From Streptobacillus moniliformis DSM 12112 (GTDB lineage: Bacteria; Fusobacteriota; Fusobacteriia; Fusobacteriales; Leptotrichiaceae), in NCBI RefSeq assembly GCF_000024565.1, contig NC_013515.1, forward strand, positions 1,346,497 through 1,410,496: a DNA stretch of 64,000 nt. The letters run 5' to 3'. The position numbers and the translations under genes were made by a program. The notes below the pieces were generated by a model. That model saw only the letters and a list, made by a program, of their open reading frames with translations, was not told where the DNA came from and did not search any database. The first letter of the stretch is position 1. Every line of letters begins with the position of its first letter. Shown here piece after piece: positions 22,103 to 60,731 of the stretch.

Positions 22103-25100
22103 CTATCTTAATTCAATCTCTACCCTTCTATTAGAAGACCTTCCACTTGAACTCTTATTTGTTTCTACTATGTTATTATATCCTGATGAACTTACCTTCC
22201 TTATTGATATACTCATATCTAAGCCTAACTCTCTTAGTTTCTTTGCTACTACATTTGCTCTCTTTAAACCTAACTCAAGATTTAAATTCTCTCCTGATAC
22301 ATTATCTGTATACCCTGTTATATATATCTTCCTATTCTTATAGTTCTCATTTAACTCTCTTACTATATTCTTTAACATCTCTTCTTGGCTCTTTGTTAGC
22401 TCATGTATACCTAATCTATATCCATCTAGTGTGTATAAGTCATCTTCATTCATCTTAATATCTTCAAATTCTTTTAATTTCTTCTCAAGTTCATCTATTC
22501 TCTTATTTAATTTATTATTTAATTCATTTAGTTTTACTATTGAATTATTAACTTCATCATTATTTACTATTACTTCTTTTTCTATTATAACTTCTTTATC
22601 TTTCTTTATATTAACACTACTTCCAAACTGATATCCTATACCTGCTCCTAATGATACATGTCCTTTAGTATTAAGTGCTCCACTTACCTTATATACTACA
22701 TTTCCTACTTCATTTAAACCTGATAGTCCCAGTGCAAAGGCATGTTCTCCGTTATAGTAACCATATGAACCTGCTATGTTGTGTCTTCTATCATCTAATG
22801 TACTTATTTGTGGTAAGTTTGCCATTGCTACAGCATTAGCTACCCCACTATTTGCTGCTACTCCTTTTGCTATATCACTTTTTACTTTATCTGTTAGATC
22901 TACACTAACTTCATTTCCTTTTGCTTCTGTCTTAATATAATCTGTTCCTTTAATTGAAAACTTAAGTCCTCCATTTTTGTTTAGACTTTGTGTATCTGTA
23001 TTTCCTTTATCTGCTCCAAATGATAATGTATTATTTCCTAAAGTATTTATTGCTTTAGCTACATCTCCTGTTTTAGCTATTTTTTCATTATCAGATGATT
23101 TAGCTTCTATTTTATCATTACTTACCTCTGTAGTAATTGTACCTACATTAGCTTTTAATTTTCCATCTTTATCTTTTAGTATAGTCTTATTATCAGTCTT
23201 TACATCTAATGTATATGTATATTTATTCTTATCACCATCATAACTTGATTTTACATTTATTGCTGAATCATTTTCTGCCTTAACTTCCGTTCTACTATCT
23301 TTTAATTGTTTTAGATTAACTCCATCAGTATCTGCTTTTCCAGCTCCAACATTACTTATCTTATTTCCACCATTATTTAAACCATCTTTAGTTAAAGATA
23401 CTACTTTATCACCTTTATCAGAATTTATTTTTAATCCATCTCCTGTAATATTAGTAGTATTCCCACTATTATCTTTAAATTCTGAACTAGTTAAATCTTT
23501 AAGTTCTTTATTTAATGAATAAGTAAAATCTTTACCTTTTTGTTTAATAGATAAGTTATCTCCTGCATTAAGTTTTACTGTATCATCTTTTTTAACTTTT
23601 TCTGTTGTTATTCCTTCAGCATTACCTGTTCCAGTTTTTCCAGAAGTTATATTAAATCCTGATTCTTTTATTGTATCATTTACTTTTTTATCAAGTTCTT
23701 TTAATTGATCTTCTGTTGCTACCTGACCACTAGTAATATTATTTGAATCCCACTTCTTATTAGTTAAACCATTAATTGTTCCTTTACCATCTTTGTTTGT
23801 TATAACATTTCCTGCTTTAACTTCTCCTGTCTTACCATTTAATTCTACTTGTTTATCTCCAGAACCTAATGTTACCTTATCGTTTAATTTAACATCATAT
23901 TCTTTACTTCCATTAGCTCCATCTTTTTGTGTTACTACAATATTATTATCACTAGATTTTACAGTTGTTTTTGAAGCTTTTGATTCTTTATCTAATTTAT
24001 CTTCTAACTCCTTTTTAACCTTATCTAATTGTGATTTATTTACAGCATCTGTATCTTTTTCTCCTGCTGCTACATTAGTTATCTTATTTCCACCATTGTT
24101 TAATCCATCTTTAGTTACTGATACTGATTTACCACTATTTTTATCAGAATTTATACTCATACCACTTCCTGTGATATTAGTTTTATTTCCATCTTTATCT
24201 TTAAATTCTGAACTAGTTAAATCTTTAAGTTCCTTATTTAATGAATAAGTAAAATCTTTTCCACTCTGACTAATAGATAAATTATCTCCTGCACTTAATT
24301 TTAATGTATCTCCTTTTGACATCTTTTCTTTACTAGATGTTCCTAAGTTATTTCCTGTTCCACTTTTACCTGATATTACATAAAAATCATAACTATTTGT
24401 TGCCTGTCCTTTATTTAGACTATCACTTAATGCTTTTAATTGATCCTCTGTTGCTGCTCTTCCACTTGTAATATTAGTTGGATCCCAAGTCTTATTAGTT
24501 AATCCAGTTATTGTTCCAGAATTTCCATCTAAAATTAAATTTTTACTCCCTAAAGTTATCTTATCATTTAACTTAACATTGTATTTTCTATGTCCATCTT
24601 TATCATCTTTTGATGTTAATACAATATTTCCAGATGTTTTATTTGCTTGTTCTTCATTATTAGCAATAACTTCTGTTTTTGAAGCTTTTATTGCATCATG
24701 AATAGTATTTTTACCAGTATCACCAATATTAGTCATATTAAGTTTTCCATTTGTAGTTATAGCTGCATTTCCACCTAAAATACTCTTAGCTGAATCTACA
24801 AATGTTCCTAATACCATATTAGTTGCATAAAGTTGTGATCCATTTATTGCATCTGTTGATTCCTTACTTATTTGTCCTGCTGCTACATGTTGTAATTGTC
24901 TTTCTTTACCTTTACTTCCTATAGATATTACTGAAATAGGGGTTTTACCTGCAAATTCACCAAATGTCATTCCATTTATACTAAATTTATTTGTTGCAAC
25001 TTGTTTTGTTGTTTCACTTTCTGATCCAAGTGCTACTGATTTTTCTATAGTTGCTTTTGAATCTGCTCCTATAGCCGTAGAACTAACTTCTTCTGCTTTT

Positions 25101-26338
25101 GAACTAACTCCTATAGCTGTAGTTTTTTTATGATCAGCTTTTGAGAAAGCACCTATTGCTGTTGCTCCTGTAATTGCTAATTCTCCTCCACCTACTTTTG
25201 TTCCTTTACTTCCTGAACTAGCCATATATCCTATAGCAACATCTCCTACATACTCTGTTTTAGAATTATTTCCTATTGATATAGCGTGTATTTCTTTAGA
25301 ACCTGCCTCTTTTCCTATCGCTATTCCATGTTTTGTTTTTGTTGTTGCAGAAACTCCTATAGCAATTGAATCAGATTGCTCTGCTATTGCATTTTTACCT
25401 ATAGTTATTGAATCTTTTTCTTTTGATTTAGCTCCATTTCCTATAGATATACTATTTTCTCCTTCTGATAATGTTTCATTACCTATAGCTATTGCATTAT
25501 TTCTATTAGTTCTTGAAGTAGTTCCTAATGCAATAGCATTAGTTCCACTACTTTTTGAATTATTACCTATTGAAATTGAACTTTCTCCTCCAGCATAACC
25601 ATTATTTCCTATATTTATTGAATTTGCTGCCATTGCTTCAATTTTATTTCCTAAAGCTATGGCATTATTAGCATTAGTTTTTGAAGTATTACCTATAGCA
25701 ATAGCATTAGTTCCACTACTTTTCGTATTATTTCCTATTGAAACTGAACTTTTACCTCCAGCATAACCACCATTACCTATAGCTATTGAATCATCAGACA
25801 TTGCATCAATTTTATTTCCTAAAGCTAGACTATTTGCTCCACTTGATTTTGATCCTAAACCAAAAACTGAACTATTTTTACCTATTGCTTTAACATCATT
25901 TCCAAAAGCTACAGAATTTTCTCCTTTACTCCCAGCTTTTCTACCTACAGCAACAGAATCTTTTCCAATCGAATTTGATTCCATACCAATAGCTATAGAT
26001 GATGAACCTGATGCTTGATTCCATGCACCTAAAGCAACTGAATTACTTTCTCCAACAATATTCTTATATCCTATAGCTACTACATTAGAAGCACTCGCTT
26101 TATTTGCCTTATTTTTAGCACCTATTAATATTGATTTTTGAACACCATTTTCAAAAACATTTGATAATTCAGTTTTAGTTCCATCTGATTTAATGTCAGT
26201 TCCAATTATATAATTATCACTTCCATTTCCACGCTTATTTTCACCACTTACACTACCTCCATCTTCTGTATAAATAGAATCTGTATAAGAAATCGTCGAC
26301 AAGAATAATAAAATTGCAACCAAGTTTTTTTTATTCAT
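22103..26338 (-). CDS. trimeric autotransporter adhesin (YadA type) with C-terminal OmpA domain
   Basis: 1411 residues. Signal peptide MNKKNLVAILLFLSTISYTDS. Residues about 60-450 are Hep_Hag head repeats (…SIAIGNGG, AIALGN) of 14-16 residues. A neck and stalk follow with two long repeats of about 242 residues, each with LKDLTSSEFKD and GDNLSI. The YadA anchor is about 1154-1241 (AKGVAANSGVANAVAMANLP to GYQF). Unusually, it continues for 170 residues: a coiled coil (1245-1300) and an OmpA domain (1300-1411) with GYTDN (Asp1345) and SNRRVEIEL (Arg1404-1405), the peptidoglycan (DAP) contacts. Transcribed from a G-tract promoter and led by a hairpin-spaced SD, described separately. Likely role: surface adhesion. 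Confidence 0.9.
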   Translation of the reverse strand: MNKKNLVAILLFLSTISYTDSIYTEDGGSVSGENKRGNGSDNYIIGTDIKSDGTKTELSNVFENGVQKSILIGAKNKANKASASNVVAIGYKNIVGESNSVALGAWNQASGSSSIAIGMESNSIGKDSVAVGRKAGSKGENSVAFGNDVKAIGKNSSVFGLGSKSSGANSLALGNKIDAMSDDSIAIGNGGYAGGKSSVSIGNNTKSSGTNAIAIGNTSKTNANNAIALGNKIEAMAANSINIGNNGYAGGESSISIGNNSKSSGTNAIALGTTSRTNRNNAIAIGNETLSEGENSISIGNGAKSKEKDSITIGKNAIAEQSDSIAIGVSATTKTKHGIAIGKEAGSKEIHAISIGNNSKTEYVGDVAIGYMASSGSKGTKVGGGELAITGATAIGAFSKADHKKTTAIGVSSKAEEVSSTAIGADSKATIEKSVALGSESETTKQVATNKFSINGMTFGEFAGKTPISVISIGSKGKERQLQHVAAGQISKESTDAINGSQLYATNMVLGTFVDSAKSILGGNAAITTNGKLNMTNIGDTGKNTIHDAIKASKTEVIANNEEQANKTSGNIVLTSKDDKDGHRKYNVKLNDKITLGSKNLILDGNSGTITGLTNKTWDPTNITSGRAATEDQLKALSDSLNKGQATNSYDFYVISGKSGTGNNLGTSSKEKMSKGDTLKLSAGDNLSISQSGKDFTYSLNKELKDLTSSEFKDKDGNKTNITGSGMSINSDKNSGKSVSVTKDGLNNGGNKITNVAAGEKDTDAVNKSQLDKVKKELEDKLDKESKASKTTVKSSDNNIVVTQKDGANGSKEYDVKLNDKVTLGSGDKQVELNGKTGEVKAGNVITNKDGKGTINGLTNKKWDSNNITSGQVATEDQLKELDKKVNDTIKESGFNITSGKTGTGNAEGITTEKVKKDDTVKLNAGDNLSIKQKGKDFTYSLNKELKDLTSSEFKDNSGNTTNITGDGLKINSDKGDKVVSLTKDGLNNGGNKISNVGAGKADTDGVNLKQLKDSRTEVKAENDSAINVKSSYDGDKNKYTYTLDVKTDNKTILKDKDGKLKANVGTITTEVSNDKIEAKSSDNEKIAKTGDVAKAINTLGNNTLSFGADKGNTDTQSLNKNGGLKFSIKGTDYIKTEAKGNEVSVDLTDKVKSDIAKGVAANSGVANAVAMANLPQISTLDDRRHNIAGSYGYYNGEHAFALGLSGLNEVGNVVYKVSGALNTKGHVSLGAGIGYQFGSSVNIKKDKEVIIEKEVIVNNDEVNNSIVKLNELNNKLNKRIDELEKKLKEFEDIKMNEDDLYTLDGYRLGIHELTKSQEEMLKNIVRELNENYKNRKIYITGYTDNVSGENLNLELGLKRANVVAKKLRELGLDMSISIRKVSSSGYNNIVETNKSSSGRSSNRRVEIELR

Positions 26339-26344
26339 ATATAT

Positions 26345-26380
26345 AGGGATTTAGCTATTTGAGAAAATCCCTCTCCTCCT
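26345..26380 (-). promoter_or_regulatory. SD and leader hairpin of the trimeric autotransporter mRNA
   Basis: AGGAGG (26375-26380) is 36 nt from the ATG at 26338, too far for normal initiation. AGGGATTT (26365-26372 read on the minus strand) pairs with AAATCCCT (26345-26352) around a 12-nt loop. Folding this 28-nt hairpin leaves 2 + 6 = 8 nt between the SD and the start codon. Confidence 0.6.
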
Positions 26381-26400: not shown

Positions 26401-26432
26401 AGTATACCCCCCCCCCCGTTCTTTTTTGTCAA
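26401..26432 (-). promoter_or_regulatory. G11-tract promoter of the trimeric autotransporter (putative phase-variable)
   Basis: Minus strand: TTGACA (26427-26432), nine bases AAAAAGAAC, then eleven G (26407-26417), then TATACT (26401-26406). The spacer is 20 bp; eight Gs would give the optimal 17. The same layout precedes the autotransporter at 60649. Confidence 0.8.
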
Positions 26433-58036: not shown

Positions 58037-60649
58037 TTATCTTAATTTATATTGCACACCAAATTCTGCTCCATTTGCTCTGTAACCAGCCTCATTAAAT
58101 CTATGAACTATATTTACCCACATACTTAATCTATCATTAACATTCATCTCTCTTAATCCCCACTTTAATTCAAATGTGTTCTTGTTATTATTATATAAAT
58201 ACTCTTCCTTTTCTACTCTAACTCCTACCAACCTTGTATCATAAATCCAATTAAACTCTAAATATGGATTTATGTTTTTAAAATGAGTAAATAATGTAAG
58301 ATTAGTCCCCAGTCTTGATTTAATATTTGAATTACCAAAATATTTTACATCTTCATCATATTTAAGTCCTGTATTAAATATATGAGAATATATTAACTGC
58401 CAATAATGACTAGAATGTAATCTCATCTTACCTATATACATATCTCCTCTTGTCCCTATTTCTAAAGACGCTTTTAATGCATGATTTATATATCTTAACT
58501 CATTTTTTATAGCTATCCTATTTTTTAAATACATATAGTTTAACCAACTATCTACATACCAATTATTATTCTTAAATGTTCCATATATACCAAGTCCAAA
58601 TGCATTAGTTTTACCTAAATTATTTGCTTTATCGAAACCAACATTTCCAAATACACCATATTTATATGTTCTATCTTTAATATTACTTTCTACTAAATCA
58701 TAACCCATAAAGATATTACTCGTATTACTTTTTATAGGTAAATTAAATTTATTATCACCTGATAATATATTATTAGAATATATCTTAGATAGTTTAGTCC
58801 ATAGTTTTTTATTAGCTATACTTTCATTATGATCATTAAATGTTAAATTAAATTCATTTCTTGCATTATTAGTAGAATTTAATATTATTCCTATTATAGG
58901 CATATTATATGTCTGATTTAAATACCAATCATTACCTTCTAAATTTAACCCATATTTATATATACCGTATTCTGAATTTAATAAGGTAAAAGCATCTTTT
59001 GTTGAACTTTTAGTTTCTATTAATTTTAACTTATTTTTCATTCTCTTATCTAATGTGGAGTTAGGATTTGAAATCTCTACTCCTGTACTTCCATTTACTG
59101 AGCCATCTAGTTTAAGCTTATCTGATTTTAGTTCATCTATATATGTTCTCATTAGTAGTTTAGAGTTTTCTCCTATATAGTTTCCTTTAATACTGAGATT
59201 ACTCGTATTATCTTTACTATTTAAAAAGCTAATCAAACCTTTATTTACAAATTTATCTTCTACTTCTATATTTGAAGCTTCTAATACATTAATAGTTGAT
59301 CTTTCATTATTAGTGAACTTTTTAGTTTTTAACTTAGCTTTTCTAATAGATGGATTACTATTTTCAACTAATATTTCATTGTTCACTTTGTATTCTTCAT
59401 TAATAAACTCCCATTTAGAACTATCTAAATGTAATTTCTCAAATTCTTTAAATTTATTACTATCTGTTATTTTACCCTCACCTATTAATCTTAAAGTATC
59501 ATTATCTCCTTCAGTACTATCTAATTCTCCTGTTACATTATCCATTGATTTTATAGTAACTATAGTTTCCTTAAATCCTTTTCTTGATAAAAGTAAATTA
59601 CCCTCTAATACTCCATTTTGTAAATTAACTCTTAAAGGGGATATTTCTTCCTTTTTATCATCTATATTTGAAGAAGGATCTTCAATAATCATATTACCTT
59701 TAATTTTACCATTATTATCTATTTTTCCCCTTAGAGCATAAAGTTGAAAATCATTTTCCGTTTCTATAGTTCCAAAATTTTGAAAATTCATATTTAACAC
59801 AGACATCATATGAGCACTCGCATCCTTTATAACTCCAGTTTTTGTATTTAAAAAAATACTTTCTCTATCATCATTAATATCAAGATCTGTGTTTTGAATA
59901 TATAGTTCACCTTTTATTGTTCCAGAATTTACTATCCTTGAAACAGCTGTATTTACATCAACAAATAGCCCGTTGTTAATTGTTCCCTCATTTTTTAAAC
60001 TTAAATCCCCAGCACCAGCCATTTTAAAATTTTTTATTATACCATGTTTTCCATTTATTATACTTCCAGTATTTTGAGAAACAAAACTAAGAGTTTCTAT
60101 CATTCCATAATTATCTAAAAAAGCTAATTTCTCTGCTCCTATTCCAAGACTACCTTTTAGTACTGAATTTTCTGAATTAACATAATGGACATATGGGGCA
60201 TTTAAATCTAAAGCACTACCCTCTCCTTTTTGAGTTATTTCCTTATTATTTATTACATAAACTAATTTCCTATAATGAACCTCATCTATAACTTTGTCTT
60301 TTTGAAAAGTTTCTTTTCCACCTAAAATTATTTCTTTTGAACTCGAGATATTTGCATTATTCTCAAATATAAGACTATTAGCATTTGCATTTGAATTTAC
60401 AATAACTTCACTTGATGATATATCTTCATTTATTATTATATTACCATTTTTACCATCTTTTACACGAAAGGTATCTCCTGTTTTTTCTACTCCATCTTCA
60501 TCATATATTATCTGCTTTTCAATTTCCTCTATTTTTTCAAAATCTTTTTTTATCATTTCATCAACAATTTTTTCAGTAGATTGTTCAGAATTAGAAATAA
60601 TTGAAAATGATGTTAAAAAAATAAACAAAAATATACCTTTTCTATACAT
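58037..60649 (-). CDS. classical (type Va) autotransporter
   Basis: 870 residues. The signal peptide is in MYRKGIFLFIFLTSFSIISN. A passenger of about 30-580 with regular beta-helix-like turns (NEGTINNGLFVD, SGTIKGELYIQN) follows. The C-terminal barrel is about 600-870: GVFGNVGFDKAN, WYVDSWLNYMYLKNR and a terminal FGVQYKLR. The last residue is Arg, not Phe or Trp. It could be an adhesin or protease carrier; no catalytic motif was seen. SD AAGGAG; promoter with a G9 tract (separate entry). It is not cotranscribed with rplB because of a terminator. Confidence 0.82.
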   Translation of the reverse strand: MYRKGIFLFIFLTSFSIISNSEQSTEKIVDEMIKKDFEKIEEIEKQIIYDEDGVEKTGDTFRVKDGKNGNIIINEDISSSEVIVNSNANANSLIFENNANISSSKEIILGGKETFQKDKVIDEVHYRKLVYVINNKEITQKGEGSALDLNAPYVHYVNSENSVLKGSLGIGAEKLAFLDNYGMIETLSFVSQNTGSIINGKHGIIKNFKMAGAGDLSLKNEGTINNGLFVDVNTAVSRIVNSGTIKGELYIQNTDLDINDDRESIFLNTKTGVIKDASAHMMSVLNMNFQNFGTIETENDFQLYALRGKIDNNGKIKGNMIIEDPSSNIDDKKEEISPLRVNLQNGVLEGNLLLSRKGFKETIVTIKSMDNVTGELDSTEGDNDTLRLIGEGKITDSNKFKEFEKLHLDSSKWEFINEEYKVNNEILVENSNPSIRKAKLKTKKFTNNERSTINVLEASNIEVEDKFVNKGLISFLNSKDNTSNLSIKGNYIGENSKLLMRTYIDELKSDKLKLDGSVNGSTGVEISNPNSTLDKRMKNKLKLIETKSSTKDAFTLLNSEYGIYKYGLNLEGNDWYLNQTYNMPIIGIILNSTNNARNEFNLTFNDHNESIANKKLWTKLSKIYSNNILSGDNKFNLPIKSNTSNIFMGYDLVESNIKDRTYKYGVFGNVGFDKANNLGKTNAFGLGIYGTFKNNNWYVDSWLNYMYLKNRIAIKNELRYINHALKASLEIGTRGDMYIGKMRLHSSHYWQLIYSHIFNTGLKYDEDVKYFGNSNIKSRLGTNLTLFTHFKNINPYLEFNWIYDTRLVGVRVEKEEYLYNNNKNTFELKWGLREMNVNDRLSMWVNIVHRFNEAGYRANGAEFGVQYKLR

Positions 60650-60701: not shown

Positions 60702-60731
60702 AGTATACCCCCCCCCAGAACATTTTGTCAA
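60702..60731 (-). promoter_or_regulatory. G9-tract promoter of the autotransporter (putative phase-variable)
   Basis: Minus strand: TTGACA (60726-60731), nine bases AAATGTTCT, nine G (60708-60716), TATACT (60702-60707). The spacer is 18 bp; eight Gs would give 17. Same design as the promoter at 26401-26432. Confidence 0.8.

Follow-up and report, generated by a model that had tools for sequence, protein, structure and literature searches.

In Streptobacillus moniliformis, poly-G tracts lying between the -35 and -10 hexamers of sigma-70-type promoters very probably (about 0.87 by our estimate) set the promoter spacing in a slippage-prone manner, giving spacer-length phase variation across the surface repertoire. 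Strand slippage at replication would gain or lose Gs and shift the spacing in 1-bp steps around a 17-bp optimum. Transcription of the adhesin gene would then go up or down in a reversible and heritable fashion. The cassette, consisting of TTGACAAAA, a few bases, Gn and TATAAT, stands before about 36 predicted surface-protein genes; if their tract lengths vary independently, each cell lineage would carry its own surface-protein mix. We infer both slippage within an isolate and its effect on transcription.

The promoter and leader of the 1411-aa autotransporter gene

The window, which is the whole 64,000-nucleotide stretch of DNA analysed, contains two promoters of this kind, together with their target genes:

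26401-26432, minus: promoter core, TTGACA-9 nt-G11-TATACT, spacer 20 bp
26427-26432, minus: -35 hexamer TTGACA, perfect consensus
26418-26426, minus: spacer sequence outside the repeat, AAAAAGAAC, 9 nt
26407-26417, minus: G11 tract, predicted slippage switch (C11 on the plus strand; G8 and G7 in sister-species relatives)
26401-26406, minus: -10 hexamer TATACT
26345-26379, minus: putative leader element, with GGAGG at 26379-26375 and an 8-bp hairpin at 26372-26345, followed by the ATG at 26338 (folding compared with shuffles)
22103-26338, minus: 1411-aa YadA-type trimeric autotransporter with a C-terminal OmpA domain (profile matches)
60702-60731, minus: second promoter, of the same kind, TTGACA-AAATGTTCT-G9-TATACT, spacer 18 bp, with G9 at 60716-60708
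58037-60649, minus: 870-aa classical (type Va) autotransporter, predicted to be driven by the G9 promoter (PF03797, PF18883 and PF03212 over cut-off)

The original prediction described TTGACA, nine bases, eleven Gs and TATACT on the minus strand with a 20-bp spacing, and the sequence agrees exactly. The tract begins 9 nt past TTGACA and ends directly before TATACT, and the ATG follows 62 nt past the -10 hexamer. The repeat therefore lies wholly inside the spacer and overlaps neither hexamer, unlike the opc and tprL type. It is at least 68 nt upstream of the start codon, outside the reading frame that translational phase variation uses. Three features of the porA and tp0126 type are present: a homopolymer wholly between -35 and -10, a target gene for a predicted surface-exposed protein, and a tract length, and thus a spacing, that differs between genomes at the same locus. 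Placement, target gene and between-species length change all fit the phase-variation promoter that had been proposed.

The 1411-aa protein matched PF05658, PF05662 and PF03895 (YadA head repeats, coiled stalk and anchor) over cut-off and carries an OmpA domain (PF00691) at its C-terminus, which places it among the YadA-type autotransporters. The OmpA domain, of the peptidoglycan-binding type, follows the YadA anchor in one polypeptide; TpgA, the closest named parallel found, is a separate protein.

In the leader, GGAGG is separated from the ATG by 36 nt, and the hairpin begins almost directly after it. Taken alone, this copy of the hairpin gave a better fold than its dinucleotide shuffles (P = 0.03). 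The leaders of 12 further genes, of the YadA-type and 180-aa families, show the same order of GGAGG, hairpin and start codon; their stems differ in sequence, and GGAGG-to-start-codon distances are 29-46 nt across the hairpin leaders. Each of the 12 beat its shuffles (P = 0.001-0.04), and the combined P value of 6e-17 overstates the significance, since these are related genes picked after inspection. The hairpin-leader loci are the window, L017, L027, L031, L034, L035, L090, L092, L113, L114, L122 and L125. A comparison of the leader with Rfam gave no credible match to a known RNA element. The hairpin's probable role is to draw the ribosome-binding site close to the start codon, or else to gate the two.

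Tract promoters across the S. moniliformis genome

The 9901T genome comprises a chromosome of 1,662,578 bp and a plasmid of 10,702 bp (PMC3035246). The assembly used here (G000) has 1,673,280 bases, including the 1,662,578-base chromosome, and was inspected in the stretches around the tracts. It contains 38 tracts of at least nine Gs (80 overlapping G9 words), 36 of which have TTGACA upstream and a TATAAT-like -10 hexamer downstream. The promoter pattern was TTGACA-N6-10-G9-13-N0-3-(TATAAT-like), and its reversed control gave no match in any genome searched with it. The G strand is the non-template strand and the tract adjoins the -10 hexamer in all 36 promoters. The number of such promoters rules out a switch unique to the 1411-aa gene. 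Tract lengths range from G9 to G13. The G11 tract of the window had been described as among the longest runs in the genome, which is fair, but it is not exceptional: nine tracts are G11, and two G12 tracts and one G13 tract are longer. Spacers measured 15 bp (1 promoter), 16 bp (2), 17 bp (2), 18 bp (8), 19 bp (15), 20 bp (5), 21 bp (2) and 22 bp (1), with the mode at 19 bp.

The genes downstream encode 14 YadA-type proteins (one, L013, split into several frames), four autotransporters like that at 60649, 11 members of a small "GPRYR" family, three members of a family of up to about 690 aa, three of a 180-aa family, and one 480-aa protein. They were grouped by N-terminal similarity by eye and by BLASTP; Pfam and NCBIfam matched only the YadA-type and autotransporter groups. 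All 36 promoters are thus predicted to feed surface-protein families, with the unnamed families assigned to the cell surface from their signal-peptide-like starts. Some copies are truncated, and L117 and L118 are short or have ambiguous starts.

The two remaining G9 tracts both fall inside genes of these families, within the reading frame:

L131: small outer-membrane-type protein with the G9 tract in its signal peptide
L132: G9 tract within the reading frame of a relative of the 480-aa family

Together with L041, these loci carry in-frame tracts of G8-G9. The tract of L041 is in the signal-peptide region and shifts the remaining coding sequence out of frame; translational switching may therefore coexist with the promoter type. 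At L260 (G000:C1:611499-611534), before a small GPRYR-family gene, a 24-bp promoter spacer is made up of GGT repeats and G6; the repeat type differs from the G tracts, and the position is the same. All 36 tract promoters are on the plus strand up to 629 kb and on the minus strand from 902 kb, apparently co-directional with replication; among the promoters without a tract, about 37 of 47 are (counted by hand, with an assumed terminus; Fisher P = 0.004).

Spacer lengths and divergence between species

We examined the spacing optimum on all 69 TTGACA-N13-24-TATAAT sites of the genome. Among the consensus promoters without a tract, 17 bp is the commonest spacing (23/47), and only 2/36 tract promoters share it (P = 1e-5). 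Three promoters with what look like tracts interrupted by substitutions (GGGGGAGG, GGGGGTGGG and GGAGGGTAGG) also have 17-bp spacing, and they drive two genes of the about-690-aa family and one YadA-type gene:

G000:C1 323675: interrupted-tract promoter L256, 17-bp spacing
G000:C1 1072954: interrupted-tract promoter L257, 17-bp spacing
G000:C1 1633413: interrupted-tract promoter L258, 17-bp spacing

Both results lend indirect support to the 17-bp optimum assumed in the original prediction. The simplest reading of the three cases would be that a tract unable to slip is kept only at a working length, and these promoters may be locked members of the tract-promoter set. For the 1411-aa gene, a 17-bp spacer (G8) should be strong, 16 or 18 bp intermediate and 20 bp weak. 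The sequenced G11 copy, with its 20-bp spacer, is therefore predicted to be low, and its spacing would put it in a low or off state. With a modal spacer of 19 and not 17 bp, most tract promoters of the sequenced clone would be expected to be weak. Among 124 tract promoters from diverse genomes (L137-L255), 20 had spacers of 16 bp, 8 of 17 bp, 26 of 18 bp and 33 of 19 bp; the dip at 17 bp may reflect sampling because several come from one genome.

Tract length differed in 11 of 13 conserved between-species comparisons, as against 5 of 31 A/T runs of at least 6 in the same alignments (Fisher P = 3e-5); the control runs were shorter than the G tracts, not length-matched, and three of the 13 comparisons share loci. 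L034 and L106 are 99.7% identical over 300 aligned bases and carry G9 and G11, the two gap columns corresponding to the size of the tract difference. L022, L099 and L081, at 97-99% identity, have G11, G10 and G10, respectively. The closest relative of the window gene in sister genome G003 (L113) has the promoter TTGACA-AAAAAGAGT-G8-TATAAT with a 17-bp spacer; at only 77% identity in this region, the pair carries less weight than the other comparisons. In G001, the closest relative (L134) has a G7 tract and a 16-bp spacer. The comparison with sister genomes that had been proposed as a check thus gave tract lengths of G11, G8 and G7 for this gene and its closest relatives, and the tract is not fixed at 11 in all relatives. 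Nor is G001 a sister species without tracts: a search for at least 8 Gs found one, yet its relative of the 1411-aa gene carries G7. Counts made with that pattern are therefore floors.

Matches to mutS1 and mutL were over cut-off in all four Streptobacillus species, which rules out loss of mismatch repair as the source of the long tracts, and nothing suggests a general mutator. Intact mismatch repair slows slippage without excluding it.

Alternative readings, precedents and distribution

The G tract might instead be a fixed regulatory element, either a regulator site or a G-quadruplex, that marks a surface-protein regulon and whose length is not a switch. Its uniform placement and strand in 36 promoters, with the Gs of the non-template strand adjoining the -10 hexamer, would suit such an element, as would the apparent co-direction with replication. 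The length, however, varies from 9 to 13 within the genome and differs between near-identical loci whose flanks are kept, and what the interrupted tracts preserve is the 17-bp spacing, not an unbroken run of Gs. We regard this reading as improbable.

Slightly less probable still is an action of tract length through DNA shape or a regulator, in the manner of tprL or opc, and not through -35/-10 spacing with an optimum at 17 bp. In its favor, tract spacers are most often 19 bp long, far from 17, and the poly-G tract of Treponema pallidum tprL overlaps the -10 hexamer and cannot act by spacing (PMC7864442). In the present promoters, in contrast, the spacer contains the whole tract and the interrupted tracts settle at 17 bp; stochastic switching is consistent with most copies being weak in a single clone.

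A chance G run, or tract lengths produced by sequencing or assembly error, can be dismissed almost entirely: 36 of the 38 tracts are in the same place, the reversed-pattern controls are empty, and the architecture recurs in sister species sequenced separately. Chance as the origin of the tracts is ruled out by those controls and by the excess of G8 words in the window (6 observed versus 0.22 expected from dinucleotide shuffles), all from the tracts at 26417-26407 and 60716-60708, both within promoters. Long homopolymers are error-prone in 454 data and draft assemblies; the 9901T reference combines Sanger reads at 11.5x with 454 reads at 24.9x and the sister genomes are drafts, so any one tract length may be wrong by one base and may conceal a mixture.

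Spacer-length phase variation has precedents. In Neisseria meningitidis porA, a poly-G tract lies between -35 and -10 with an optimum of 17 bp (PMC7864442; the 1995 porA promoter paper appears by its title in PMC5084427). As in Streptobacillus, a G tract sits in the promoter spacer of a surface-protein gene and its length sets the spacing. Neisseria has one or few such loci among many in-frame repeats, whereas in S. moniliformis about 36 promoters are built alike and just two or three tracts fall in reading frames. T. pallidum tp0126 likewise has poly-G between -35 and -10, with the best transcription at 17 bp (PMC7864442); it differs in belonging to an unrelated organism, in having an OmpW homologue as its target, and in that its spacing effect is experimental, while that of Streptobacillus is predicted from sequence. 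The opc, nadA and tprL systems also show transcriptional phase variation of surface proteins with a repeat at or near the promoter. The C run of opc overlaps -35, as the tprL repeat does -10 (PMC7864442), whereas the Streptobacillus tract stays within the spacer; nadA acts through a repressor and distal promoter spacing (PMC2791445). Among the Neisseria genes invoked in the original prediction, porA is a true match, as tp0126 is, but opc departs slightly from this arrangement through that overlap.

A search of open-access literature found no paper on Streptobacillus phase variation, and surface variation in this rat-bite fever agent appears to be undescribed in the literature searched. The principle is known from Neisseria and the syphilis bacterium; what is new is the scale, which appears to be unreported for S. 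moniliformis, the near-exclusive promoter placement, and the similar families in unrelated bacteria. Each cell probably retunes at random, through the 36 tracts, which surface proteins are made. We also lean toward the broader view of a promoter-level phasome, in which much of the adhesin and outer-membrane repertoire would be placed on one slippage-tuned cassette, broken tracts at 17 bp would be fixed in the on state, and comparable sets elsewhere would have independent origins. If slippage tunes these promoters, tract lengths read from sequence would predict the adhesins expressed by an isolate, single-adhesin serology would call for caution, and about 36 natural replicate promoters would be at hand for measuring the effect of spacing on transcription.

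The strict pattern occurred in 31, 21, 19 and 1 copies in the four Streptobacillus species. Among the 98 Fusobacteriota genomes searched it was abundant only in Streptobacillus, with 1-3 copies in each of seven others. Outside the phylum, we analysed 20 genomes from among the matches listed in a GTDB-wide pattern scan, which give no rates because they were chosen for having a match. A Candidatus Ancillula MAG had 27 copies and a rabbit-gut Bacilli MAG 20, ruling out a design confined to Streptobacillus. Each has its own cassette sequence, which points to independent origin. Such families suggest that promoter poly-G phasomes are commoner than the Neisseria examples imply. In two genomes of the same family (L068 and L069), a tract promoter precedes short peptides with a double-glycine-type leader (ELMTIDGG), which resemble bacteriocin precursors.
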